The notes under the pieces are model-generated. The model searched no databases. It was given only the letters and a program-made list of their open reading frames with translations, and was not told where the DNA came from. This document shows, piece by piece, positions 1-13,826 of a stretch of DNA of 64,000 nucleotides. A program made the translations under genes and the position numbers. Numbering within the stretch: the stretch's first letter is position 1; every line of letters starts with the position of its first letter. The stretch lies in the NCBI RefSeq assembly GCF_024499055.1, contig NZ_CP071249.1, positions 2,287,001-2,351,000 on the forward strand, read 5' to 3'. This DNA is from Turicibacter bilis. Its GTDB lineage: Bacteria > Bacillota_I > Bacilli_A > MOL361 > Turicibacteraceae.

Positions 1-1
1 T

Positions 2-85
2 ATTAATTATTCAAATGGTATCCCAAGTTTAAGTCCAGTCGGTGGAGAAGGGACCGCTCATCAAGTACATCTCCAAAAATTGTGA
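2..85 (+). CDS. 3' end of an unrecognised gene (partial)
   Basis: An open frame enters from the left edge and runs 27 codons to a TGA at 83-85. The tail is rich in Gly, Ser and Pro and ends in HQVHLQKL. No family can be named from so short a piece. Bases 86-249, up to the next gene, show no other gene. It is called only because the frame is open and its composition is protein-like. Confidence 0.4.
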   Translation: MNYSNGIPSLSPVGGEGTAHQVHLQKL

Positions 86-2526: not shown

Positions 2527-2566
2527 AAAAAAAGAAGCTTCTATTAGGAGAGAGCTTCTTTTTTTA
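2527..2566. terminator. Bidirectional terminator between convergent genes
   Basis: AAAAGAAGCT and AGCTTCTTTTTT form a stem flanked by A-rich and T-rich runs, serving the nucleotidyltransferase gene on the plus strand and the AraC gene on the minus strand. Confidence 0.75.
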
Positions 2567-3278
2567 TTTGATGTTGTTGACGAAATTCAATTGGAGTAAA
2601 TCCCGTTAATTTTTTAAACATCATTGTATAGTAGTTGTGGTTATTAAATCCAACAGCAAGTGCAATTGATAAAATCGACTCATTATTTTGAATTAGATAT
2701 TGCTTACTTTTTTCGATGCGTAGTCGATTCAAAAATTTTGAGAAGGTCATTCCTGTCTCGTTTTTAAAAATACAACAAAAATAACTTTTATTTACGTTTA
2801 AATCTTTACATACATCTGTCAGTGTAATGTTTTTGTCATAATTTTTATGAATATAGTAAATTCCTTCTCGAACATAGGTGTTAAATTTAGGGGCTGAAAA
2901 TAAATGTTGCCTCATAATATTTTCAAATAGCTTTCCAAGATAAGAGAGGCAATCAAAAGGTTTATAAGCGAATTGATTGTCCTTACCTAGATTAATAGAT
3001 TGAAAAGGACCCGCAATAAAATAACCTGTTAGTTGGCGATAATTTTGCAAAGGAAGAACAATAAAATGGATATTTTCAAAATAAGTCAGTGTGGTTAAAG
3101 CATCTATTCCTTGTTTGAGATCGTGGTACAAAGAAGTTGAGTTAATAAAATCTTTTATAGACTCCTGAATATCAATATTAAAAATAGAGTTAAAGGTTTG
3201 ATCGAGAAATTGTACGGGGATGTGGACACAAGTATAAAAATCTAGTAATACATTTTCAATTGATTTCATAAATTTCAT
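2544..3278 (-). CDS. AraC-family transcriptional regulator
   Basis: 244 aa. The C-terminal 100 residues carry the double helix-turn-helix of AraC/XylS proteins (region beginning YIHKNYDKNITLTDV, second HTH around ILSIALAVGFNNHNYYTMMFKKLTGFTP). The N-terminal domain (about residues 1-130) resembles the ligand-sensing domains of YesN/PocR-type regulators, including a YFIAGPF strand. It is divergent from the nitrogenase-like operon, sharing a 157-bp intergenic region with the Fur-box sequences, so it may be a second, ligand-responsive regulator of that operon. The ligand is unknown; haem or a haem product is a guess from context only. Confidence 0.85.
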   Translation of the reverse strand: MKFMKSIENVLLDFYTCVHIPVQFLDQTFNSIFNIDIQESIKDFINSTSLYHDLKQGIDALTTLTYFENIHFIVLPLQNYRQLTGYFIAGPFQSINLGKDNQFAYKPFDCLSYLGKLFENIMRQHLFSAPKFNTYVREGIYYIHKNYDKNITLTDVCKDLNVNKSYFCCIFKNETGMTFSKFLNRLRIEKSKQYLIQNNESILSIALAVGFNNHNYYTMMFKKLTGFTPIEFRQQHQIKKEALS

Positions 3279-3380: not shown

Positions 3381-3403
3381 TGATAATGGTTATCAATTGA
3401 TAA
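3381..3403 (+). promoter_or_regulatory. Overlapping Fur boxes
   Basis: 3381-3395 reads TGATAATGGTTATCA, a 7-1-7 Fur box with one mismatch to TGATAATnATTATCA. 3390-3403 reads TTATCAATTGATAA, a perfect palindrome overlapping it. The pair lies just downstream of a possible -10 (TATAAT, 3367-3372) and 33 bp before the nifH-like start, where a bound repressor would block transcription. Iron control is inferred from this match. Confidence 0.75.
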
Positions 3404-3435
3404 CTCTATTATGTTACAAATAAAGGAGAAAAGCA

Positions 3436-4179
3436 ATGAGAAAATTAGCAATTTACGGAAAAGGTGGGATTGGAAAGTCAACAACGACATCTAACTTATC
3501 GGCTGCATTATCTATGTTGGGGCTCAAAGTTATGCAGATTGGATGTGATCCCAAAGCAGATTCAACTAAAAATTTAATGGGAGGAAATTTTATACCAACT
3601 GTTTTAGAAGTAATGAATAAAAAAGGGGATAACATTACATTAGAAGATATTGTTTTTGAAGGATTTAATGGGGTGTTATGTGTTGAAGCTGGCGGACCTA
3701 CTCCAGGGGTTGGTTGTGCAGGAAGAGGAATTATTGCTGCCTTTGAAAAATTAGCTGAATTAAATGCATTTGAAGTTTACCAGCCAGATATCGTTATTTA
3801 TGATGTGCTAGGTGATGTTGTTTGTGGTGGATTCTCGATGCCAATTCGTAATGGATATGCTGATGAGGTTTATATTGTGACTTCGGGGGAAATGATGTCA
3901 ATGTATGCCGCAAGTAATATTTCAACAGCAGTTAATCAATTTAAAAATCGAGGATATGCCTCTTTAAAAGGTTTGATTTTAAATGCTAAAAATGTGGAGA
4001 ATGAATATGAACTTGTTCAAAAATTAGCTACTGAAATAAATTCAACAATTTATCATTATATTCCACGTGATAAAGTCGTACAATTATCCGAAAATGATGG
4101 AAAAACTGTTATTGAAAAAGAGAGTAGCTGTGAGATGGCAAATGTATATTTAGAGTTAGCAAAGAAAATAATTGCTTAG
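3436..4179 (+). CDS. NifH-like iron protein (reductase of a nitrogenase-like complex)
   Basis: 247 aa, slightly shorter than NifH (about 270-295). Residues 8-16 are the deviant Walker [10 protein letters not shown]. The two cysteines that bind the intersubunit [4Fe-4S] cluster in this family are C94 (VGCAGRG) and C130 (GDVVCGGF). R97 matches the arginine that is ADP-ribosylated in some NifH. Members hydrolyse ATP to pass single electrons to a partner (NifDK, BchNB, BchYZ, CfbD, MarDK). Here the partner is presumably the D/K-like pair encoded downstream in the same operon. It is the first gene of the operon, behind the Fur boxes, and follows an AAAGGAG ribosome binding site. No nifB, nifE or nifN is present, so nitrogen fixation is not indicated. 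Confidence 0.93.
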
Positions 4180-4208
4180 TTAAGTAAAAAAAGTAGGAGG
4201 AAGAGAAA

Positions 4209-5132
4209 ATGAAAGTTAAAAATTTATTAAGTATGATTTTAGTAGCAGGGATGATGTTAGTTGGATGTCAAAATGACGGGCAAGACGTTGATCAATCAAC
4301 AGAAAATCCACAACCAGATCAAGCAGTTCAAGAAGAAACTCTAGTTGAGGAGGTAAAAGTTGTATCTGCAACTGTATCTGCAACGAATGTATTAGCGAAA
4401 TTAGATGCTGAGGTAGTAGGGGTACCAACCACAACACAAACCTTACCGGCACAATATGCTGATTTACCAGAGGTTGGTCAAGCAATGAGTCCAGATTTAG
4501 AAATAGTTGCTTCATTAGAGCCAGATTTATTTATTATGGATTCTAATTTTCAAGCTAGTGTAGAAGAGAGTTTATCACAATATGGATTAAATACTTTCTT
4601 TTTTGAGACAGGAAGTTATTCTGATTTTGTAAACAGTATTAAACAATTAGGAGTAGAAATTAACCGTGAGGATGAGGCTAAAAAGCTAGTTAGTGAAATT
4701 GAAGCATCAGTTACAAAAGCTTTAGAGAAAAAAGGAGATCAATCGCCAACAGTGGCTGTAATTTTTGGAGCAGGTGAGAACTTTATGCTAGCAACAGATA
4801 CTTCGTATTTAGGAGATTTAGTGAAGACATTAGGTGCAACAAATATTACATCGAAACTTGATGGAGATATGAGTTCAGGCTATGTTCAATTTAGTTTAGA
4901 ACAAATTTTAGCTGAGAATCCTGATTATGTTCTACGTTTTGCACACGGAAATATTGAACAAACAAAAAAAATGTTTGATGAAGCATTTGATGCTAATGAC
5001 GCTTATCAAGAATTAGATGCTGTAAAGAGTGGAAAAGTTTATGATTTAGATCCATCAGTTTTTAATGTATCAGCGAATTTAGAAATTACAACGGCAATTG
5101 AAACACTTGGAGAAATTTTTTATGGTAACTAA
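4209..5132 (+). CDS. IsdE-like haem-binding lipoprotein of an ABC importer
   Basis: 307 aa. Residues 1-20 are a lipoprotein signal with lipobox LVGC (C20), then an acidic linker and a two-lobed periplasmic-binding-protein-2 domain (PF01497). The closest relative I recognise is staphylococcal IsdE: shared stretches include GVPTTTQTLP, PEVGQAMSPDLE, SYLGDLVKTLGATN, LRFAHG, KMFDEAF.AND and VYDL. IsdE binds haem through a Met and a His; the equivalents here are M93 (in GQAMSPD) and H246 (in RFAHG). Strong AGGAGG site; 29 bp after the nifH-like gene and 2 bp before the permease gene. A corrinoid or siderophore cannot be excluded, but the ligand pair favours haem. Confidence 0.88.
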   Translation: MKVKNLLSMILVAGMMLVGCQNDGQDVDQSTENPQPDQAVQEETLVEEVKVVSATVSATNVLAKLDAEVVGVPTTTQTLPAQYADLPEVGQAMSPDLEIVASLEPDLFIMDSNFQASVEESLSQYGLNTFFFETGSYSDFVNSIKQLGVEINREDEAKKLVSEIEASVTKALEKKGDQSPTVAVIFGAGENFMLATDTSYLGDLVKTLGATNITSKLDGDMSSGYVQFSLEQILAENPDYVLRFAHGNIEQTKKMFDEAFDANDAYQELDAVKSGKVYDLDPSVFNVSANLEITTAIETLGEIFYGN

Positions 5133-5134
5133 TC

Positions 5135-6115
5135 ATGAGTTTAGATAGAAAATATCTTATTATTGGAGGAACAGCACTTGTTTTAGTAATTTTGGTGGTA
5201 TTATTTTCAACTATTGGAAGTGTTAACTTAAGTTTAGGTGAAATTATTAGTCCGCTAATTCATCAAGATAATAGTATGGTCATGACAATTGTCTACAAAA
5301 TGCGACTACCACGAAATATTTTAGCGGTTTTGATTGGCGCTAATTTAGCCGTATCTGGTGTTTTATTACAATCTGTTATGAAAAATCCACTTGCTGACCC
5401 TGGAATTACCGGGGTTTCAAGTGGAGCTAGTGTGGCAGCAATTATTATTTTGTTATTAATGCCTCAACTTTCAGGCGCTTTACCCTTATTCGCCTTCGTT
5501 GGAGGAGCAATTGCATGTGCACTTGTATTTATAATGGCGTGGAAAAATGGTTTAAGACCAGAGCGCATTGTTTTAGCTGGTGTTGCGATTAACACAATTT
5601 TAGGTGGATTTATTTCTTTATTATCAACTCTATTTAGTGACAGAATTCAGAGTGCGATTTTATGGTTAAACGGAAGTCTTGCAACTAAAACATGGTCACA
5701 CGTAGATATGCTGTTTCTCTATTCATTAATTGGTCTAGGACTTTCATTATTTTTGATTCGTAGTGCGAACGTCTTACAACTTGGTGATGAATCAGCAAAA
5801 AATCTAGGATTTAATGTAAGTCGTACAAGGCTTGTTATTTCTGCAGTGGCTGTTTTTTTAGCAGCTATTTCAACAGCTGTTGTTGGAATTATTAGCTTTA
5901 TTGGATTAATTGTTCCTCACATTGCACGTCTGCTAATGGGAAGTGATCATAAATACACAATTCCTTTTAGTATGGTACTAGGAGCTATTGTTTTATTAAT
6001 TGCAGATACATTAGCAAGAACTATTGGGGGATCGATTGAAATCCCAGTTGGTGTTATTACATCAATTGTAGGTGGACCATTTTTCTTATATTTATTAAGA
6101 AAGAGAGGGAACTAG
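5135..6115 (+). CDS. FecCD-family ABC permease (haem/iron importer)
   Basis: 326 aa, standard for the BtuC/FecCD/IsdF family, with around nine or ten hydrophobic segments. Typical motifs include RLPRNILAVLIGANLAVSG (about 53-71), NPLADPGITGVSSGA, LAGVAINT, and the C-terminal GIISFIGLIVPHIARL with the cytoplasmic coupling helix. The start is 2 bp after the lipoprotein stop and has only a weak ribosome binding site, suggesting translational coupling. It should form the membrane channel for the substrate delivered by the upstream IsdE-like protein. Confidence 0.92.
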   Translation: MSLDRKYLIIGGTALVLVILVVLFSTIGSVNLSLGEIISPLIHQDNSMVMTIVYKMRLPRNILAVLIGANLAVSGVLLQSVMKNPLADPGITGVSSGASVAAIIILLLMPQLSGALPLFAFVGGAIACALVFIMAWKNGLRPERIVLAGVAINTILGGFISLLSTLFSDRIQSAILWLNGSLATKTWSHVDMLFLYSLIGLGLSLFLIRSANVLQLGDESAKNLGFNVSRTRLVISAVAVFLAAISTAVVGIISFIGLIVPHIARLLMGSDHKYTIPFSMVLGAIVLLIADTLARTIGGSIEIPVGVITSIVGGPFFLYLLRKRGN

Positions 6116-6117
6116 TC

Positions 6118-6903
6118 ATGCTTTGTGCAAAGGATTTAAAAGTAGGATATGAGGATAGAATTATCATTGATAACTTAAATTTATCAATTAAACAAGGTGA
6201 AATTGTTTCGATTATTGGTCCTAATGGATGTGGAAAATCAACACTATTAAAAACATTATCTCGTATGATTAGTCCGATATCTGGTAAGGTGTATTTAGAA
6301 GGAACTGAATTAAAATATTTAAAAAATAAATTGATTTCTCAAAAAATTTGTTTATTATCTCAACATAATCAGGCACCAAATGATTTAACTGTTGAACAAC
6401 TTGTTTATTATGGACGTCTACCACACAAAAAATGGTATGAACATAAAAGTGAAGAGGATAAATTATTTATTGATTGGGCTATTGAACAAACAGGGTTAAC
6501 ACGATATAAAGATAAACCGATTGGGTCATTATCTGGTGGAGAGAGACAACGTGCCTATATTGCACAAGCTTTATGTCAAAAACCAACGATTTTATTACTA
6601 GATGAACCAACAACCTATTTAGATATTTCATATCAATTAGAATTAATGGAACTCATTCAAGAGATTAATAAAAAATTAAATATTACAGTTGTGATGGTTT
6701 TACATGAATTAAATCAAGCGAGTCGCTACAGTGATCGACTTATTATTATGAAACAAGGGACCATTATTTCAGATGGGGCACCGAATGAAATTATTGACCA
6801 ACAAACAATTGAATCAGTTTATCAAATTCAATGTGAGATTGATTTAGATCCTATTTCGAATAAACCACGTATTCACCCAATTCAAACAATTAAAAGTGCA
6901 TAG
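6118..6903 (+). CDS. ABC importer ATPase (FecE/BtuD type)
   Basis: 261 aa. Walker A GPNGCGKST at 34-42, Q-loop near LLSQHNQ, signature LSGGERQR, Walker B ILLLDEPT and an H-loop (VLHELNQ) are all intact. It is 2 bp from the permease gene and 10 bp before the nifD-like gene, so it powers the haem/iron importer of this operon. The coupling of importer and reductase in one transcript is the key point of context. Confidence 0.93.
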   Translation: MLCAKDLKVGYEDRIIIDNLNLSIKQGEIVSIIGPNGCGKSTLLKTLSRMISPISGKVYLEGTELKYLKNKLISQKICLLSQHNQAPNDLTVEQLVYYGRLPHKKWYEHKSEEDKLFIDWAIEQTGLTRYKDKPIGSLSGGERQRAYIAQALCQKPTILLLDEPTTYLDISYQLELMELIQEINKKLNITVVMVLHELNQASRYSDRLIIMKQGTIISDGAPNEIIDQQTIESVYQIQCEIDLDPISNKPRIHPIQTIKSA

Positions 6904-6913
6904 GGGGTAAGGT

Positions 6914-8203
6914 ATGTATACATTAGAAACTTTAAATCGCCTGAGTGAGATTCAAAGTGACCAAGATATTAAAAGTTTATCACATGCAATCTTTCCAGGA
7001 ACACATTGTCCACTATTTGGCGTTGCTTTAACTGCCTCATATATTCAAAATATGATAATCGTTGTTATAGGAACAAGTGAATGCACTTATTATACAAAAA
7101 ACTTTGCTTATCATCGCCAAAAGGGAAAGGATAGTGTTTATTCATTAGTTCTTGACGATAACGAAGTTGTATTTGGTGCAGTAAATCAAGTTGAAAAAGC
7201 AATTAAAGAAATTATTGAAATTGAAAATCCAGATGCGATTATGTTAGTAACAACGTGTGTTCCAGAATTAATTGGAGAAGATTATACAGGAGTTAAGTAC
7301 AGTTTAGAGCAGGAGGGTAATATTCCTATTTTTGTTGTACAAACCGAACATTTTAAATGTAATTCTCATATTCCAGGAATGTCGCGAACGCTCAAATCAT
7401 TTGCACAAGCAATGCAGCCATGTGCTCAAAATGATAGTATCAATATTTTAGGACATCGACAAGATAAAGTAGATGAAACAGAGTTAGTGCAGTTATTAAC
7501 TAAGCATGGAATCACGATTAATACAGTTATTCCATCAAAATGTACAATTGAACAAATTAAAGAAGCACCTCGTGCAAAATTAAATATTGTGACTGATATG
7601 ATTGCTCTTGACCTAGCAAAAGAAATGAAGCATCGCTTTAATATTGATTATATTTATTTTGATAAACACTTAAATCATAAGATTATTGATGAAAATTATA
7701 AACAAATTGAAGGATTATTTGGAATCTCATTACAAGAAGATCTAGAGCAGGTTAAGTTAGAATATCATCAATTGTTTAATCGATGTCAGACACTGTTAAC
7801 AGGGAAGAAATTAATTTATGGGAATACGCCAATGATGGCATTTGAAACAGTAGATTTCTTAAGTGATTTAGGGCTAGTTCCTGTATTTGTTCAATTACGT
7901 AAATTATATGATCAAGATATTAAATTTAAAGACAATCTTTTAAGTAAAGGATATGATCCATATATTAGTCGTATTGCAAATATTGCCCCATTACGTAAGC
8001 TATATGACACGATTAGCGCAGACTTATATGTTGGTCATGAAAGTCCAATGTTATTAAAGCAAAAAGGTATGTTACAAATAACGTTTGATGTTCATGCACA
8101 AAAAATTGGATATGAACTTTCAATTGGAATGATGAAGGATATGATTAAGTTATTTGAAATGGAATCAATGCCAATGGGAGGAATGATACATGCAGCTATG
8201 TAA
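6914..8203 (+). CDS. NifD-like nitrogenase component 1 subunit
   Basis: 429 aa, about 50-100 residues shorter than NifD. Three cysteines sit where P-cluster or [4Fe-4S] ligands occur in the family: C32 (PGTHCPLFG), C57 (GTSECTYY) and C115 (TTCVPELIGED, the family's TC..E.IGDD motif). The C-terminal GHESPMLLKQKG and later FDVHAQKIGYE resemble the last domain of NifD/NifE/BchN proteins. I cannot assign the FeMo-cofactor Cys and His of true NifD. Together with the K-like subunit, which overlaps it by 14 bp, it should form the catalytic tetramer reduced by the NifH-like protein. Substrate unknown; the operon suggests haem or a tetrapyrrole. Confidence 0.88.
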   Translation: MYTLETLNRLSEIQSDQDIKSLSHAIFPGTHCPLFGVALTASYIQNMIIVVIGTSECTYYTKNFAYHRQKGKDSVYSLVLDDNEVVFGAVNQVEKAIKEIIEIENPDAIMLVTTCVPELIGEDYTGVKYSLEQEGNIPIFVVQTEHFKCNSHIPGMSRTLKSFAQAMQPCAQNDSINILGHRQDKVDETELVQLLTKHGITINTVIPSKCTIEQIKEAPRAKLNIVTDMIALDLAKEMKHRFNIDYIYFDKHLNHKIIDENYKQIEGLFGISLQEDLEQVKLEYHQLFNRCQTLLTGKKLIYGNTPMMAFETVDFLSDLGLVPVFVQLRKLYDQDIKFKDNLLSKGYDPYISRIANIAPLRKLYDTISADLYVGHESPMLLKQKGMLQITFDVHAQKIGYELSIGMMKDMIKLFEMESMPMGGMIHAAM

Positions 8204-9398
8204 ATATTATCCTATCGCTAATGATCGGATGGGAGCAATTTGGACACTGGCATCTATTAAAGGAGCATGTGTTATTGAATTTGGACCGGCCGGAACTACT
8301 CATTATGCAATTGAAGGAATTGGAAGTTTAAATGGAAAACATGAAGCTAATATCTATTCCACTCATATGGATCAAAGTGATGTGACTTTTGGAAAGTATG
8401 ATCGTCTCGAACAAGCAATTATGGAAGTTGATGAAAATATTAAACCAAAATATATTTTTGTTATGGCTTCTTCAATTTCATCTATTATTGGAGCAGATGT
8501 AGAAAGTGTTTGTTTTGAATTAGAGTCTAAAGTTAGTGCTCAATTAATTCCAATAACAACAGGGGGATTAAAACACCATTATCATATTGGTGTTGAACAA
8601 ACATTGTTATTACTTGTTAAGAATTTAGTCAAGCCTGCTCAAAAAGATCCAATGAAATACAATATTCTAGGATTTACAATGGATAGATATAATTATTTAT
8701 CTGATGTAGAAGAACTAAAGCGTATGATGACTTTATTTTTTAATAAACAATTAAACGCTGTTTTTACTTGTGAAACTAGCGTTGAGGATTTAGAGAATGC
8801 TGCAACCGCTAGTTTAAATATTGTTGTCCGACGCGAAGCATTAAAGGCTGCACAGTATTTAGAAAAAACATATGGAATTCCGTATATTTATCATTCATTA
8901 CATGGGTTAGAGAATACGATGAAATTTATTCAAAAACTAGCTATATTTGAGGGATATGAATTAAATGAAGAAAAATATGAAGAAGAAGTTACTCAAATTA
9001 AACAACAAATGTTTACAGTGAAACGAAAATTCTTTTTCTATAAAGAAACAAAAAAATGTGCTGTCTTTGGTGATTATGATACTGCAGTCGGAATGAAGCA
9101 ACTACTTGAAGAGTTAGGATTAGAAGTTAATCGAGCTGAGATTTTATATCAGACAGAGGTAGAGGAACCATTAGTAGCAGGTGGGACTGAATTTGACCGA
9201 ATGAAGTATTTAAAGCAAGAATCTTTATTGCTGCTATTAGGTGATGGCGCAACAATTGAGATGGATTATACCGCTAAATCTAGTCATCAAGTAAGCAATC
9301 CTAATTTACATCATATAATGATTTATCCATATACGCCTTTTATTGGATTTAGAGGGATGTTGTATTGGATAGAGAAAATTTTAAATATTAGTTTATAG
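8190..9398 (+). CDS. NifK-like nitrogenase component 1 subunit
   Basis: 402 aa. The N-terminus keeps C4 and C27 (GACVIEFGPAGTTHY, the family's P-cluster-type loop). The third cysteine position, in the region VMASSISSIIGADVES that corresponds to TC..E.IGDD, is a serine. The start overlaps nifD-like by 14 bp, as expected for obligate partners. A late GTEFDRMKYLKQ segment matches the NifK/BchB C-terminal pattern. The reduced cysteine set points to a [4Fe-4S] or modified cluster rather than a standard P-cluster. Its short length and the missing cofactor-maturation genes place it among group IV-like nitrogenase relatives. Confidence 0.85.
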   Translation: MQLCKYYPIANDRMGAIWTLASIKGACVIEFGPAGTTHYAIEGIGSLNGKHEANIYSTHMDQSDVTFGKYDRLEQAIMEVDENIKPKYIFVMASSISSIIGADVESVCFELESKVSAQLIPITTGGLKHHYHIGVEQTLLLLVKNLVKPAQKDPMKYNILGFTMDRYNYLSDVEELKRMMTLFFNKQLNAVFTCETSVEDLENAATASLNIVVRREALKAAQYLEKTYGIPYIYHSLHGLENTMKFIQKLAIFEGYELNEEKYEEEVTQIKQQMFTVKRKFFFYKETKKCAVFGDYDTAVGMKQLLEELGLEVNRAEILYQTEVEEPLVAGGTEFDRMKYLKQESLLLLLGDGATIEMDYTAKSSHQVSNPNLHHIMIYPYTPFIGFRGMLYWIEKILNISL

Positions 9399-9407
9399 GA
9401 GCTTAAA

Positions 9408-9872
9408 ATGGAGAAGTTATTAGAACAAAAAAGTCTCATGATTAGTTCATTAAATCATCAATTATTACCGGAAATCAGCTATGCACCATTTATAAGAGAT
9501 GGAATTGATTTGTATATCTATATAAGTAAGGCTGCTGCTCATTATCACCATTTATTAATGAATCCAAACTGTTCAGTTATGCTGATTGAAGATGAAAAAG
9601 ATGCGAAAAATATTTTTGCGAGGGAACGACTTTCTTTTAATTGTAAGGTAGATTTGATGAAAGAAGTAGAGGAGGATATCTTTAAAAAATTTGATGCTAG
9701 CCATGGGGCATCAATAATGAGTATTTTAAAGAAACTAGATTTTGATATATTTAAATTAAATATCCAGTCTGGACGATTAGTTAAAGGATTTGGAAAAGCA
9801 TATGATATTACTATTTGTGACGATCAATTAATAATTAGTGAAGGATCTGTCATGGGACATAAGATGAAATAA
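9408..9872 (+). CDS. HugZ/HutZ-like split-barrel haem-utilisation protein
   Basis: 154 aa, a PNP-oxidase-like split beta-barrel. Recognisable stretches are the YAPF strand, YIYISKAAAHYHHLL, VMLIEDEKDAKNIFARERL and, near the end, SGRLVKGFGKAYDI followed by GHKMK. HugZ and HutZ proteins bind haem and are linked to haem breakdown in pathogens, with a C-terminal His ligand; H151 in the tail is the candidate here. It is the last gene of the operon, 9 bp after the nifK-like gene and directly before a terminator. In an anaerobe it may act as haem acceptor or carrier rather than as an oxygenase; that is inference. Confidence 0.82.
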   Translation: MEKLLEQKSLMISSLNHQLLPEISYAPFIRDGIDLYIYISKAAAHYHHLLMNPNCSVMLIEDEKDAKNIFARERLSFNCKVDLMKEVEEDIFKKFDASHGASIMSILKKLDFDIFKLNIQSGRLVKGFGKAYDITICDDQLIISEGSVMGHKMK

Positions 9873-9873
9873 A

Positions 9874-9901
9874 ATCACCAGTTTAACTGGTGATTTTTTT
9901 A
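9874..9901 (+). terminator. Terminator of the nitrogenase-like/haem operon
   Basis: AATCACCAGTT and AACTGGTGATT are perfect complements followed by T-runs, immediately after the HugZ-like stop. This bounds the transcript. Confidence 0.9.
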
Positions 9902-9999
9902 AAATTAACAAAAAGTTAACAATCCTTAAGATTGGTTTAAGGTGTATCAATATAATGGAAGTATAAGATATTTATTCAATCTAATTGGAGGTTATTATA

Positions 10000-10755
10000 A
10001 TGGCGATTAAATCATTTAAACGGTATGAGAAAAAATTTTTATTAACGAATCAACAATATGATGCACTAATTCCTAAGTTGTTAGATTACATGGAACCGGA
10101 TCATCACTGTTTAGATGGAAAGAACTACAGCATCTATAACATTTATTACGATACGATTCATTCTGATGTCATTCGTCATTCAATTTCAAAACCTTATTAT
10201 AAGGAAAAGCTAAGGTTGAGAAGTTATAAAATTCCTAAAAAGCCAACAGATAAAGTTTTTCTAGAATTAAAGAAAAAGATTAATGGAATCGTCAATAAAC
10301 GCCGTGTGATTTTAACTTTAGAGGAAGCAAGAGATTTTGTTGAGCAAGGAATACGACCTGAAACATGTGACTATATGAGTGAACAAGTCATCAATGAAAT
10401 AGCTTATTATTTGAGTCATGAATCTGTAAAGCCATCTGTTTATATTGGCTATACTCGTAAAGCATTTTTTGCTAAAGATGATCCGGAATTTCGTTTAACC
10501 TTTGATTCAAAAATACTGACAAGACGTGAAAATTTAACACTTGAAGGGGGATATTATGGGGATGATATTCTTGAAGAAAATCAATATTTAATGGAAGTTA
10601 AAATTTTAGGTGCCATCCCGGTTTGGTTTACGAAGATTTTATCAGAATTAGAGATTTACAATACTCATTTTTCAAAATACGGTCAAGAATTTATGAAGTA
10701 TTGTGCCCAAGATAAGGATGAAATAGAAGAGAAATGGAGAGATATCGCATGTTAG
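10000..10755 (+). CDS. VTC-domain protein (polyphosphate polymerase fold)
   Basis: 251 aa from the ATG at 10000; the upstream TTG at 9985 overlaps the GGAGGTT ribosome binding site and is rejected. VTC/CYTH-like tunnel motifs occur in order: RYEKKFLL, YYDT with the following R, KLRLRSY, FLELKKK, the basic NKRRV, YIGYTRKAF, RLTFDSKI and LMEVKI. In yeast Vtc4 this tunnel makes polyphosphate from ATP; bacterial VTC proteins usually sit, as here, beside a DUF4956 membrane protein. The next gene overlaps by 7 bp. Polyphosphate synthesis is a family inference. Confidence 0.85.
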   Translation: MAIKSFKRYEKKFLLTNQQYDALIPKLLDYMEPDHHCLDGKNYSIYNIYYDTIHSDVIRHSISKPYYKEKLRLRSYKIPKKPTDKVFLELKKKINGIVNKRRVILTLEEARDFVEQGIRPETCDYMSEQVINEIAYYLSHESVKPSVYIGYTRKAFFAKDDPEFRLTFDSKILTRRENLTLEGGYYGDDILEENQYLMEVKILGAIPVWFTKILSELEIYNTHFSKYGQEFMKYCAQDKDEIEEKWRDIAC

Positions 10756-11438
10756 AAACAATTATTCAATCAACAGATGGAAGTTCATTTACATTACTTA
10801 ATACGTTAATTGTCATTGCAGCTGCAATCATTTTAGGGTTCGTGATCAGTTTAGTTTATATGAGGACAACTAAAAAAGCTGGATATAGCCCAAGCTTTAC
10901 GATTACTTTGATTATGTTGCCAGTTATTATTTCAATCATTATTTTATTAGTTGGTAATAATGTTGCTCGGGCATTTAGTTTAGCAGGAGCCTTTTCATTA
11001 ATTCGATTTAGAAGTGCCCCTGGGGAACCAAAAGATATTGCATATGTTTTCTTTACTTTAGCAGTAGGTTTATGTTGTGGGATGGGCTATATTGGATACG
11101 CCGTTATTTTTACTATCTGTTTATCACTAGTTATGCTAATATTAGATGCTACAAAATTTGCAATGCCTAAAACAAAAGCTATGAATTTAAAAATTATTGT
11201 CCCAGAAGATTTAAATTATGAAGGTATTTTTGATGAAGTTTTAAATAAATATTCAAGCAACTATCATATTGAAACAATTCGTACTCGTGATTTTGGTGCT
11301 CTTTTTGAACTAAATTATTCAATTCAATTGCTTGAAGGAGCGAATCAAAAACAATTAATTGATGAATTAAGATGTAGAAATGGAAACTTAAATATTACAT
11401 TAACTTTAAATGCTCAAAATGAAAAAGTATATGTTTAA
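10749..11438 (+). CDS. DUF4956 membrane protein
   Basis: 229 aa from the ATG at 10749 (GGAGAG upstream), overlapping the VTC stop. Three or four transmembrane segments lie in the first 140 residues, with the conserved AFSLIRFRSAPGEPKDIAY loop of DUF4956 between them, then a soluble C-terminal domain (about 145-229). It is the usual partner of VTC-domain proteins and probably forms the membrane part of that system. A hairpin terminator follows. Confidence 0.87.
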   Translation: MLETIIQSTDGSSFTLLNTLIVIAAAIILGFVISLVYMRTTKKAGYSPSFTITLIMLPVIISIIILLVGNNVARAFSLAGAFSLIRFRSAPGEPKDIAYVFFTLAVGLCCGMGYIGYAVIFTICLSLVMLILDATKFAMPKTKAMNLKIIVPEDLNYEGIFDEVLNKYSSNYHIETIRTRDFGALFELNYSIQLLEGANQKQLIDELRCRNGNLNITLTLNAQNEKVYV

Positions 11439-11444
11439 AAATAT

Positions 11445-11475
11445 AGCCAGCAAGTTCTGAAAATTTGCTGGCTTT
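11445..11475 (+). terminator. Terminator after the VTC/DUF4956 pair
   Basis: AGCCAGCAA pairs with TTGCTGGCT, followed by TTT, seven bases after the DUF4956 stop. Confidence 0.8.
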
Positions 11476-11710
11476 TACTATGTAATTAAGTGGCTGTTGA
11501 CTAAGAGAGAATAACATAAATTCTTCAAGCTGTTTATTCCTAACTAAACAATCAGTCCTACTCATTTATGAGATTTAAGATATACCCAAAGGGGGCGTCA
11601 TTTCAGGTGCTGAAATATGATTCTAAGAAGCCTCTTGGTTTTAACAGTTTTCGATAATGTAGCTTTGTTATTATAAATTATAAGCCACTGTTACTTTTTG
11701 AGGGGGGACT

Positions 11711-11818
11711 ATTAGAGTTTTTAATAAAAGTTTTTTTGTTGTTTTAGTTTGTTTGTTATTGGCTTATCTTTTTCTAGTTATAATTGATATCATTAGTATT
11801 TATTCATCTCATCTTTAA
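11711..11818 (+). CDS. Possible small hydrophobic peptide
   Basis: After AGGGGGG at 11701-11707 an open frame could start at ATT (11711) and run 35 codons to TAA at 11816-11818. The product has one long hydrophobic core (VVLVCLLLAYLFLVII) between a basic N-terminus and a polar tail, like small membrane peptides or type I toxins. The non-standard start makes this uncertain. The rest of 11439-12011 shows no gene, only flanking terminators. Confidence 0.2.
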   Translation: MRVFNKSFFVVLVCLLLAYLFLVIIDIISIYSSHL

Positions 11819-11946
11819 ATGAAGAGTAAGGTTCCTGAATGCAGTAACTCTTTAGTAGATAAAAATGAAGGTGAGAACACGTTCTCTGATACAACTGCTT
11901 TAATATTTATTATGAGATACTTTTCTTATGCAATCCAAATCTTCAA

Positions 11947-11987
11947 AATAAAAAGGGTATGAAATCTAGATTTCATACCCTTTTTTT
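11947..11987. terminator. Bidirectional terminator
   Basis: A long palindrome with arms AAAAAGGGTATGAAATC and GATTTCATACCCTTTTT, with A and T runs outside, lies 25 bp past the stop of the minus-strand lipoprotein gene. Confidence 0.9.
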
Positions 11988-12011
11988 ATTAATTAATTGC
12001 TTGAAGGTTAT

Positions 12012-13826
12012 TTAAGGTCTCCCCATACCACCAGGACCACCCATACCATTATTTAAATTTCCATTGCTTGTGATAGAGCTTGAGATAGTTAAGGTCGCTA
12101 CATTTGAGCCCCCACTATATGATCCGCCTTTGTATAAGCCATCTATTTCTGTTCCAGTTGAAGTACCACCCGTTGAAATCGTGTATGTTTCACCTGTTTT
12201 AAATTCAGGAGAACTAATCATAATAACTTGTGATGATTTAGAAGGTGCATAAGTAATCAAATCTGTTCCCGTACTGTCTTGAATATTAACCAATGTATGA
12301 CTTGAAGTATTACTGCTCACGACGATTGTATTTTGGCTAGATGATGAACTTGGGGTTTGAAGCATAGCATTACTTCCGGATGCAATTAATAATCCCCCAC
12401 TAATATTAAACGTTGCGTCATAGTCTAATGCACCATTTCCGCCATCAGTTGGTCCATCAACAATAACGGTTCCACCTGACATTTCAATCGATCCATTTGC
12501 ATCAAGTCCATCACCAGAAGCATTGACATAGACATATCCACCATTAAAGTAAATCATACCTGAAGTCGATGAGAAGTTATTTTGTCCAGGACGTCCATTC
12601 ATGGCAGAACCATCATTTCCACCCGCTGCATTAATTCCATCATCACTTGCGATGAGATGAATTGTTCCATCGTTTATCGTAATCGTTGTACTTTCTAATC
12701 CTTCATATGATTTTGTAATATCGATTGTTCCACCATTAATGTCTAGTGTTGTATCCGCATGAATCCCATCATCGCCACTAGCTATAGTGAATGATCCACC
12801 ATTAATGACGATACTATCGTTTGTATGAATTGAATCATCGGAAGAGTCAATATTAAAGCTTCCATCTTCAACCGTTAAGTTAACACCTGCTTTTAATGCT
12901 TTTGCACTTGTTGTTTCTTCACTACTAGAAGATGAAGTTTGAGCATGTCCGGGTATTCCCCAAACGCCCCAACTCGATGATTTCGAACTACTGTTTTCAC
13001 TACCACCACCTGTTTCGATAGTAAAAGTTCCACTATTAATTAATAAATCTGTTTCAGCTTGAATACCATCACCTGTTGCAGTTAGATTAAAGGTTCCATT
13101 ATTGATTGTAATCCATCCTTTAGTTGTATCTGTTGTATTATCTGATTTAATAGCGTCACCACCGCTGTTAATCACAAAGGTTCCGTTATCAATTTCAATA
13201 GAATCTTTTCCTTTTAATCCATTGTTAACAGCGTTAATTGTAATATCTCCATTTTTGATATCTAAGTCATCTTTACTCGCTATTCCATTGTTATAGTTTG
13301 CATTCACAATTAAAGAACCTGTTCCATTAATTTTTAAATCATCTTTGCTAAAAATAGCGGCATTTGGTTCATCCACTGTTGCATCTTCATAAACATATGA
13401 TTCTGCATCCGTTATGACACTTTCTGTTCCTTCAACTAATGTTAAAGTCGTTTTATCAGCATTCATAACGTAAATAGGAGCACTTGTTGAAGACGTTAAA
13501 TGAACACCATTTAATAAGATTTCAACTTGATCTAAATCACCGGCATTCACAATAACTTGCCCGTCATCTAGTGTTCCACTTAAACTATAAGTCCCGCCTT
13601 GAGTGATAGTGACTATGTTTTCATCGACTGTCACACCAGTTCCATTGACTGTAATACTTGATCCAAATTCAATCGTTGTATCGGCAGCTGAATGATCTTG
13701 ATTCGTTGATTCAACGATATTTTCTTGTATTGCCTCATCAGAGGTGTTAGGTTGCTGCTTAGAGCACCCGATTAATGTACTATAAATTGATAAAGCTGAA
13801 ATGAAAAAAGTCAGTTGCTTTTTCAT
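12012..13826 (-). CDS. DUF4353-type carbohydrate-binding lipoprotein
   Basis: 604 aa. An N-terminal lipobox LIGC (C21) is followed by an acidic linker. The body is an array of short parallel-beta-helix-like repeats (patterns such as INNGTF, DGIHADTTLDINGG, SDDGINAAGG, ASGDGLDANG), as in DUF4353 carbohydrate-binding proteins. The tail is Gly/Met-rich (NNGMGGPGGMGRP). Ribosome binding site ACAGGAGGCG. DUF4353 proteins are commonly found near VTC/DUF4956 genes, as here. It should be a surface-anchored protein; its ligand is unknown. Confidence 0.85.
   Translation of the reverse strand: MKKQLTFFISALSIYSTLIGCSKQQPNTSDEAIQENIVESTNQDHSAADTTIEFGSSITVNGTGVTVDENIVTITQGGTYSLSGTLDDGQVIVNAGDLDQVEILLNGVHLTSSTSAPIYVMNADKTTLTLVEGTESVITDAESYVYEDATVDEPNAAIFSKDDLKINGTGSLIVNANYNNGIASKDDLDIKNGDITINAVNNGLKGKDSIEIDNGTFVINSGGDAIKSDNTTDTTKGWITINNGTFNLTATGDGIQAETDLLINSGTFTIETGGGSENSSSKSSSWGVWGIPGHAQTSSSSSEETTSAKALKAGVNLTVEDGSFNIDSSDDSIHTNDSIVINGGSFTIASGDDGIHADTTLDINGGTIDITKSYEGLESTTITINDGTIHLIASDDGINAAGGNDGSAMNGRPGQNNFSSTSGMIYFNGGYVYVNASGDGLDANGSIEMSGGTVIVDGPTDGGNGALDYDATFNISGGLLIASGSNAMLQTPSSSSSQNTIVVSSNTSSHTLVNIQDSTGTDLITYAPSKSSQVIMISSPEFKTGETYTISTGGTSTGTEIDGLYKGGSYSGGSNVATLTISSSITSNGNLNNGMGGPGGMGRP

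Follow-up and report, generated by a model that had tools for sequence, protein, structure and literature searches.

Beside nitrogenase itself, several nitrogenase-like enzymes have been described, and an excerpt of PMC11423573 names DPOR, COR, Cfb, Mar, Isr and Nfa. DPOR (BchLNB) and COR (BchXYZ), which belong to Group V, act on precursors of (bacterio)chlorophyll, and DPOR contains one [4Fe-4S] cluster held by three Cys of N and an Asp of B. Cfb is likewise a nitrogenase-like reductase of a tetrapyrrole ring and has no K subunit, and the Group IV enzymes (Mar, Isr and Nfa), among which are reductases of sulfur compounds, have a radical-SAM B gene in their sets (excerpt of PMC11423573). Anaerobic breakdown of haem is known from the radical-SAM enzymes ChuW, HutW and HmuW, which occur in haem uptake operons with the partners ChuY, HutZ and HmuF. 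HutZ shares the operon hutWXZ with the degrader HutW (excerpt of PMC12670364), and FldH and its paralogue HmuF bind haem (FldH via His134), bring it to HmuW and also reduce the product of this enzyme (excerpt of PMC10404700). In Bacteroidota, the dechelatase HmuS releases iron from haem (excerpt of PMC12583661).

In the present study, 64,000 nucleotides of the Turicibacter bilis genome, which consists of one contig of 2.79 Mb (NZ_CP071249.1, positions 2287001–2351000; hereafter the window), were analysed with respect to an operon of seven genes that joins a haem-type importer to a nitrogenase-like enzyme and a HugZ-like protein. An earlier note on this DNA had proposed an anaerobic route to haem iron. 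That one unit combines an importer of haem with a nitrogenase-like reductase of two components, under the control of iron, proved to be well supported, and the reduction of the tetrapyrrole with release of iron is put forward here as an inference. In addition to what this note contained, the proposal draws on the conservation of the operon, on flavodoxins resembling FldH and BilS, on DPOR-like cluster ligands and on the lack of HutW matches over the cut-off.

Structure, conservation and iron control of the operon

All seven genes lie on the plus strand between positions 3436 and 9872. They comprise nflH (3436–4179), encoding a NifH-like [4Fe-4S] ATPase as electron donor; the gene of a putative IsdE/HupD-like haem-binding lipoprotein, the substrate-binding protein (SBP) of the importer (4209–5132); genes of a FecCD-type permease (5135–6115) and an ABC transporter ATPase (6118–6903); nflD (6914–8203) and nflK (8190–9398) for the NifD-like and NifK-like catalytic subunits; and a gene for a HugZ/HutZ-like split-barrel protein, a putative haem carrier (9408–9872). 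The genes are separated by 29 bp (H–SBP), 2 bp (SBP–permease), 2 bp (permease–ATPase), 10 bp (ATPase–D) and 9 bp (K–HugZ), and the reading frames of D and K overlap by 14 bp; these values had been given before and were confirmed exactly from the coordinates of the open reading frames. The seven family assignments also held in Pfam and NCBIfam searches (Pfam: Fer4_NifH 327 bits for H, FecCD 322 for the permease, ABC_tran 126 for the ATPase, which was also assigned by NCBIfam, and Oxidored_nitro 198 and 239 for D and K), although the lipoprotein and the HugZ-like protein did not reach the curated cut-offs of IsdE and HugZ. The last gene is followed by an inverted repeat and a T-tract, a likely terminator (9871–9897, plus strand; listed on the minus strand, the repeat is symmetric), as the note had stated.

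Within 392 genomes drawn from the phylum, D was matched at E ≤ 1e-20 in two, namely that of the window and another from its genus, and it occurs in two of eight genomes of the family, the own genome included. Single-protein scans for D in the genome_contigs and viral_contigs collections gave no match; an alignment-based scan (A3) of genome_contigs yielded 30 relatives from 62 pattern matches. Among 297 genomes of the order to which [Eubacterium] tenue belongs (genome G395, locus L009), 56 matched D at 1e-10, 15 at 62–70% identity and four at 43–47%; the rest were weaker, partial or broken. The neighbourhoods of these 30 relatives, two plasmid loci and 20 fetched regions were then compared with the window proteins. 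This led to a core family of 21 loci, located via D and including the window and also locus L016, which was included for its gene order (D 47% identical). In all 21 loci the order H–SBP–permease–ATPase–D–K is identical (L079 is cut by a contig end before H). The hosts include [Eubacterium] tenue, Paraclostridium, Clostridioides difficile, Clostridium, Sarcina and a metagenome-assembled genome (MAG) of Oscillospiraceae. The gene-set search suggested earlier thus recovered a six-gene core in constant order, joined by HugZ in 13 of the 21 loci. Some copies of the enzyme genes look decayed or carry sequence errors: K of Paraclostridium locus L010 is split into two open reading frames (about 4838–6060), and a D gene with three stops lies at G506:C9:6853-7479.

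The linkage might also be a matter of chance or legacy, with an enzyme that acts on an unrelated substrate, e.g. a sulfur compound as in Mar and Isr, and has only iron control in common with the importer. The HDK set is shared with Mar, Isr and Nfa, and the reduction of sulfur compounds by Group IV relatives would fit such an origin. However, the order of six genes is the same in 21 loci, and a Pfam scan of the seven operon genes (neighbours in the other loci were not scanned) revealed no radical-SAM gene of the kind present in the Mar, Isr and Nfa sets. An unrelated substrate is therefore regarded as extremely improbable.

Between nflH and the gene of an AraC-family regulator, a Fur-type box, TGATAATGGTTATCA (3381–3395, no strand assigned), was detected. 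It has one mismatch to the 7-1-7 Fur consensus that we presume and no other site in the 64 kb comes as close, 0.12 matches with at most one mismatch being expected; at least one such match occurred in 11 of 100 shuffles. When the 158 bp before nflH were Markov-resampled, none of 500 sequences equalled the observed box. The 19-bp Fur pattern gave no match, and the 7-1-7 form was matched. At the corresponding place in the sister genome G082 the box is perfect, as it is in locus L073. Of the 20 core loci having the upstream region, the window among them, 13 show a box with at most two mismatches ahead of H. The operon had been described as bounded by Fur boxes. This was borne out on the 5' side, where one good box lies, and no second good box was found downstream of the operon in the window. 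The AraC-family gene (2544–3278, minus strand; Pfam HTH_18), which the earlier note did not contain, is divergent from the operon and belongs to the arrangement: of the 20 other core loci, 16 have a relative (>90 bits) in this position and orientation, and two of the remaining four (L010, L079) lie near contig ends. These observations show that the module is real, conserved and linked to iron.

Expression data give a further hint. For a co-culture of C. difficile ribotype 078, an excerpt of PMC11633334 gives expression changes in a table that has, under iron metabolism, the genes J5O10_08590 (NifH) and J5O10_08600 (iron ABC permease). The two tags fit H and the permease of the operon, which they may represent. 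Among 12 of the 14 places in the main text of a C. difficile Fur paper (PMC6311696), no nitrogenase-like entry occurs.

Directly downstream of the operon (9985–13826), a VTC-domain gene is followed by a membrane-protein gene, and past this pair a large repetitive lipoprotein-like gene (12012–13826) lies on the other strand.

The importer and putative haem-protein partners

The SBP reached 268 bits against the NCBIfam model IsdE, and its best solved relatives are Lmo2184 of Listeria (5joq, E 1.7e-49) and staphylococcal IsdE (2q8p, E 1.4e-47); HtsA follows with an E-value of 1.2e-13. We take Met78 and His229 to be the axial haem ligands of IsdE, and the residues aligned with them are both present in the window SBP (Met93 and His246). 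The column of His246 contains His in 24 of 24 rows (21 core loci and three of the next group), and that of Met93 contains Met in 20 of 23. In its SBP, the importer thus resembles the Isd/Hup haem importers of Gram-positive bacteria; unlike in these, the score lies under the IsdE cut-off and no IsdG-type oxygenase occurs among the seven genes. Haem is likely to be the ligand. FecCD importers also carry corrinoids and siderophores, and in three of 23 SBPs the presumed Met is absent, which would suit an importer of another tetrapyrrole or chelate (cobalamin, coproporphyrin or a bilin) that the enzyme then reduces. Yet the E-values of the haem lipoproteins lie 34 orders of magnitude below that of HtsA, which follows them among the solved relatives, the HugZ-like and FldH-like partners belong to haem-binding families, and the operon has a Fur box; a different ligand appears very improbable.

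The HugZ-like protein is a short form of 154 amino acids (133 bits to NCBIfam HugZ) with PDB matches to HutZ (3tgv, E 1e-20) and 3gas (E 5e-18). A His occurs within its last eight residues in 13 of 13 rows and is presumably a haem ligand. HugZ follows K in 13 of the 21 core loci. It is missing from the other eight (six C. difficile-type loci, L014 and L016) and was not found anywhere in their genomes; because of these eight loci, HugZ is not essential to the module.

Furthermore, four loci (L083–L086) with a D that is 43–47% identical to that of the window, in the genomes of which no HugZ was found, each contain a co-directional gene of a flavodoxin of 167–191 residues, located after K in L083 and L084 and before H in L085 and L086. 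In L084, an SBP with 243 bits to IsdE follows the flavodoxin; no SBP was found in the stretch examined of L083. The best NCBIfam model of the four flavodoxins is BilS (121, 117, 106 and 131 bits; cut-off 155), and in the PDB they match 8g64 best (E 1e-22, 6e-28, 1e-13 and 2e-22), a structure of FldH from Fusobacterium nucleatum with haem bound. For three of them it is the only match at E ≤ 1e-3, and L084 has one other (9e-4). An HPH motif occurs in all four flavodoxins. Its second His is aligned with His134 of FldH in L083, L084 and L086, whereas the L085 alignment does not extend to this residue. With HugZ in core loci and the flavodoxin in L083–L086, two unrelated kinds of haem-protein relatives accompany the enzyme; the flavodoxins are the most telling new hint at haem. 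In this respect the operon resembles the ChuW/HutW/HmuW systems, which also combine a haem uptake operon with a haem carrier, here a HutZ-like protein or, in relatives, a flavodoxin like HmuF and FldH; it differs from them in that the nitrogenase-like enzyme stands in place of the radical-SAM enzyme.

These partners might also indicate that the reductase (NflHDK) serves to detoxify or dispose of haem, or of a linear tetrapyrrole derived from it, by modifying it, and that the iron is freed by another protein, e.g. the HugZ-like one or a further enzyme. HugZ family members are annotated as haem oxygenases, and BilS and FldH, to which the flavodoxins are similar, take part in the reduction of bilins or anaerobilins (excerpt of PMC10404700). 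On the other hand, HutW (TIGR04107) was over its cut-off in none of 18 genomes and in one of 14 controls, with sub-cut-off matches in all 18. These matches have about 380 amino acids and are presumably HemW. Moreover, HugZ is absent from the eight core loci mentioned, D and K always being present in loci found via D, and the chemistry of HugZ presumably requires oxygen or peroxide. This reading is considered improbable. The CobN model PF02514, to which we assume HmuS to correspond in type, was not found in six genomes; this is a weak test for HmuS, as the control Bacteroides ihuae was also unmatched.

It was also considered whether HugZ and the flavodoxins replace each other. A flavodoxin match was obtained in one of 13 HugZ-bearing genomes (G530, 34%) versus 10 of 12 HugZ-less ones. 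This complementarity is weakened by the fact that six of these ten are of the C. difficile type, and likewise by weak flavodoxin matches in three D-less genomes from the genus of the window (G064, G182 and G392). The one C. difficile-type flavodoxin examined (G459, L124; G459:C1:1053482) is BilS (166 bits, over the cut-off) and lies far from the operon; beside it, a bilirubin reductase is encoded (507 bits, over the cut-off), and the genome also has the nitrogenase-like set.

A second HugZ-like gene, 50% identical, ends near the first bases of the window (1–13), about 3.4 kb before the operon (G000:C1:2286609-2287013; L097 16604–17086), and a desulfoferrodoxin-like gene (94 bits, under the cut-off) was found shortly upstream of it.

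The nitrogenase-like enzyme and its sister branch

In H, the cluster ligands C94 and C130 are kept in 24 of 24 rows. The best NCBIfam scores of H are those of CfbC (351 bits, cut-off 402) and NifH, both under the cut-offs. Cys32, Cys57 and Cys115 of D align with the three cluster Cys of NifD, NifE and BchN and are kept in every row having the residue (25 loci). Across 34 D rows of this and the second family described below, deviations are confined to Cys32, where each family shows a single gap; in a separate alignment, row L008 (Treponema) is placed differently. K contains no Cys in the column of NifK Cys95, NifN Cys44 and BchB Asp36, the residue being Thr (Thr36 in the window) in 24 of 24 rows having it. 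On the K side, the candidates for the fourth cluster ligand are a non-Cys residue or an open site.

At the positions of Cys275 and His442 of NifD (Azotobacter vinelandii numbering), the ligands of the iron-molybdenum cofactor (FeMo-co), neither Cys nor His is present in the eight family D rows shown. In addition, NifEN was not found in the genome, in which D and K are the only PF00148 (Oxidored_nitro) proteins. With both ligands replaced and no NifEN, it is very unlikely that this enzyme fixes nitrogen; the natural and likely reading is an enzyme of the DPOR type whose substrate cavity is open. The AlphaFold models are of good quality, with a predicted local distance difference test (pLDDT) of 85.2 for D and 85.8 for K. 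The best fold match of the D model is a nitrogenase beta chain (template-modelling (TM) score 0.76), which places it at superfamily level only. For the K model, the top E-value belongs to NifN, and the highest TM score among the 50 matches listed to DPOR (8vqj, 0.84).

With DPOR and COR, the window set thus shares H, D and K, three Cys on D and the absence of FeMo-co ligands, and K, like BchB of DPOR, has a non-Cys residue in the Asp36 column, although this is Thr and not Asp. Unlike in DPOR and COR, D and K are far below the cut-offs (75 and 115 bits to BchB, cut-off 490; the other DPOR/COR models score lower), and the operon is iron-regulated and contains a haem-type importer; no photosynthesis genes were detected among ten window proteins scanned with Pfam. 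Cfb is approached by the high CfbC score of H, but this score is under the cut-off and the window has a K. In total, the set fails a tested feature of each of nitrogenase, DPOR/COR, CfbCD and Mar/Isr/Nfa. The earlier note knew of no described enzyme of this exact set, which agrees with the open full-text literature, where the matches listed contain no paper on a nitrogenase-like enzyme in haem use; this support is weak, since subscription papers and nearly all preprints lie outside it. An excerpt of PMC7242693 names no nitrogenase-like enzyme in haem breakdown.

A second family of 21 loci (L005 and L019–L038; D 25–30% identical) spans Clostridia, Negativicutes, Paenibacillaceae MAGs, a Treponema MAG and a Coriobacteriales MAG. 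Two FecCD permease genes lie beside the enzyme in 14 of these loci, and the full order permease–permease–ATPase–H–D–K was recognised in nine. Of the remaining seven, two have an SBP only, one has an SBP with a single permease and an ATPase, and in four the stretch contains no importer gene. Five SBPs of this family (L005, L021, L025, L026 and L091) score best against binders of enterobactin and dicitrate (63–83 bits, far below the cut-offs) and at most 39 bits against IsdE. The Pelosinus and Sporomusa loci contain TonB siderophore receptors (358 and 340 bits, cut-off 223.5), and the Sporomusa locus additionally an esterase-like gene (32 bits). K of this family has His in the column of the window's Thr36 in 20 of 21 loci and a Cys three residues earlier (Cys33) in all 21, which the window's branch does not have. 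In a tree of 76 rows, both branches form one clade (D 93/77, K 100/99), which is separate from the references included (Nif, Bch and Chlorohelix); warnings of long branches apply to this tree. As CfbD, IsrD and NfaD are not part of the tree and the reference branches are long, the clade is not placed in Group IV or V. In genome G605, two different nitrogenase-like sets occur (L087 and L088), one of which is followed by an SBP, a permease and an ATPase; this SBP fits no tested family well.

That this enzyme type is found beside iron importers in two branches hints at a general function in liberating iron. Both the ring of a porphyrin and ferric catecholates strongly resist reduction, and an ATP-driven donor would fit either. 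The whole clade could accordingly consist of ATP-driven reductases of the metal centre in imported ferric chelates, e.g. catecholates, which would receive electrons at potentials that ordinary reductases do not attain, and in the haem branch the iron would then be reduced or stripped at a partner protein without chemistry at the ring. The paired FecCD permeases, the five SBPs, the siderophore receptors, the esterase-like gene and the common clade of both branches all suit this explanation. The reduction of ferric to ferrous haem, however, needs no such low potential and frees no iron, and the haem branch lacks Cys33 of K and has haem-type partners. This explanation is rated as unlikely.

A putative route to haem iron without oxygen

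The preferred explanation is a Fur-controlled module that would take iron from haem without oxygen. It builds on the operon, the protein families, the cluster cysteines, the loss of the cofactor ligands, the Fur box and the conservation of the module, all of which are established at the level of sequence. The IsdE/HupD-like lipoprotein would capture haem, and the FecCD permease and its ATPase would take it into the cell. There, the HugZ-like protein, or the FldH/BilS-like flavodoxin in relatives, may hold the haem and hand it to DK. ATP hydrolysis by NflH would drive electrons of very low potential onto a [4Fe-4S] cluster, presumably held by the three Cys of D and by a non-Cys residue or an open site from K. 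This cluster may then reduce the porphyrin ring of a haem that occupies the cavity filled by FeMo-co in nitrogenase. Once reduced toward a porphyrinogen-like state, the ring would bind iron poorly, so that Fe2+ could leave without oxygen-dependent cleavage of the ring. Iron release from haem, as described for HmuS (excerpt of PMC12583661), would thus be reached here by another enzyme type. That haem or a haem-derived tetrapyrrole is the substrate of the enzyme is probable, and for the reduction of the ring with release of iron the evidence tips somewhat in favour.

Several observations weigh against this explanation. The SBP and the HugZ-like protein are below their cut-offs (298.65 and 240 bits), three SBPs (L013, L014 and L015) have Phe in the Met column, and HugZ is missing from the eight core loci named above. 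In the six C. difficile-type loci the Fur boxes have three mismatches (P 0.11–0.20), and in L016 there are five. The support of the clade in the D tree is only moderate. The module is dispensable, because six of the eight genomes of the family have no D. In one of them, G289, genes of an AraC-type regulator, a flavodoxin of the ordinary kind, HugZ, an IsdE-like SBP, a permease and an ATPase lie on two contigs (L098 and L115), and D was not found in the draft assembly of 220 contigs; the importer–HugZ part can hence occur without the enzyme. Finally, the siderophore-type importers of the sister branch show that the enzyme type is not tied to haem.

Taken together with the second family, the common theme of both branches may be the reductive release of iron from chelates and not tetrapyrrole chemistry alone. 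A new clade of iron-liberating, ATP-driven reductases with dedicated FecCD importers, in which the haem branch acts by ring reduction and the sister branch on siderophores, is conceivable and is offered here only tentatively. The kind of enzyme is known, and its catabolic, importer-coupled use looks new.

If the proposed route is true, relatives of nitrogenase would serve catabolism and iron scavenging, beyond nitrogen fixation and the chemistry of pigments, F430 and sulfur, and a group of unassigned nitrogenase-like genes would gain a defined and testable substrate. The iron-liberating clade would cover gut and other anaerobes, including Clostridioides difficile. Gram-positive anaerobes without a HutW-type enzyme would have a route to haem iron, which would be relevant to haem-rich diets and gut bleeding.

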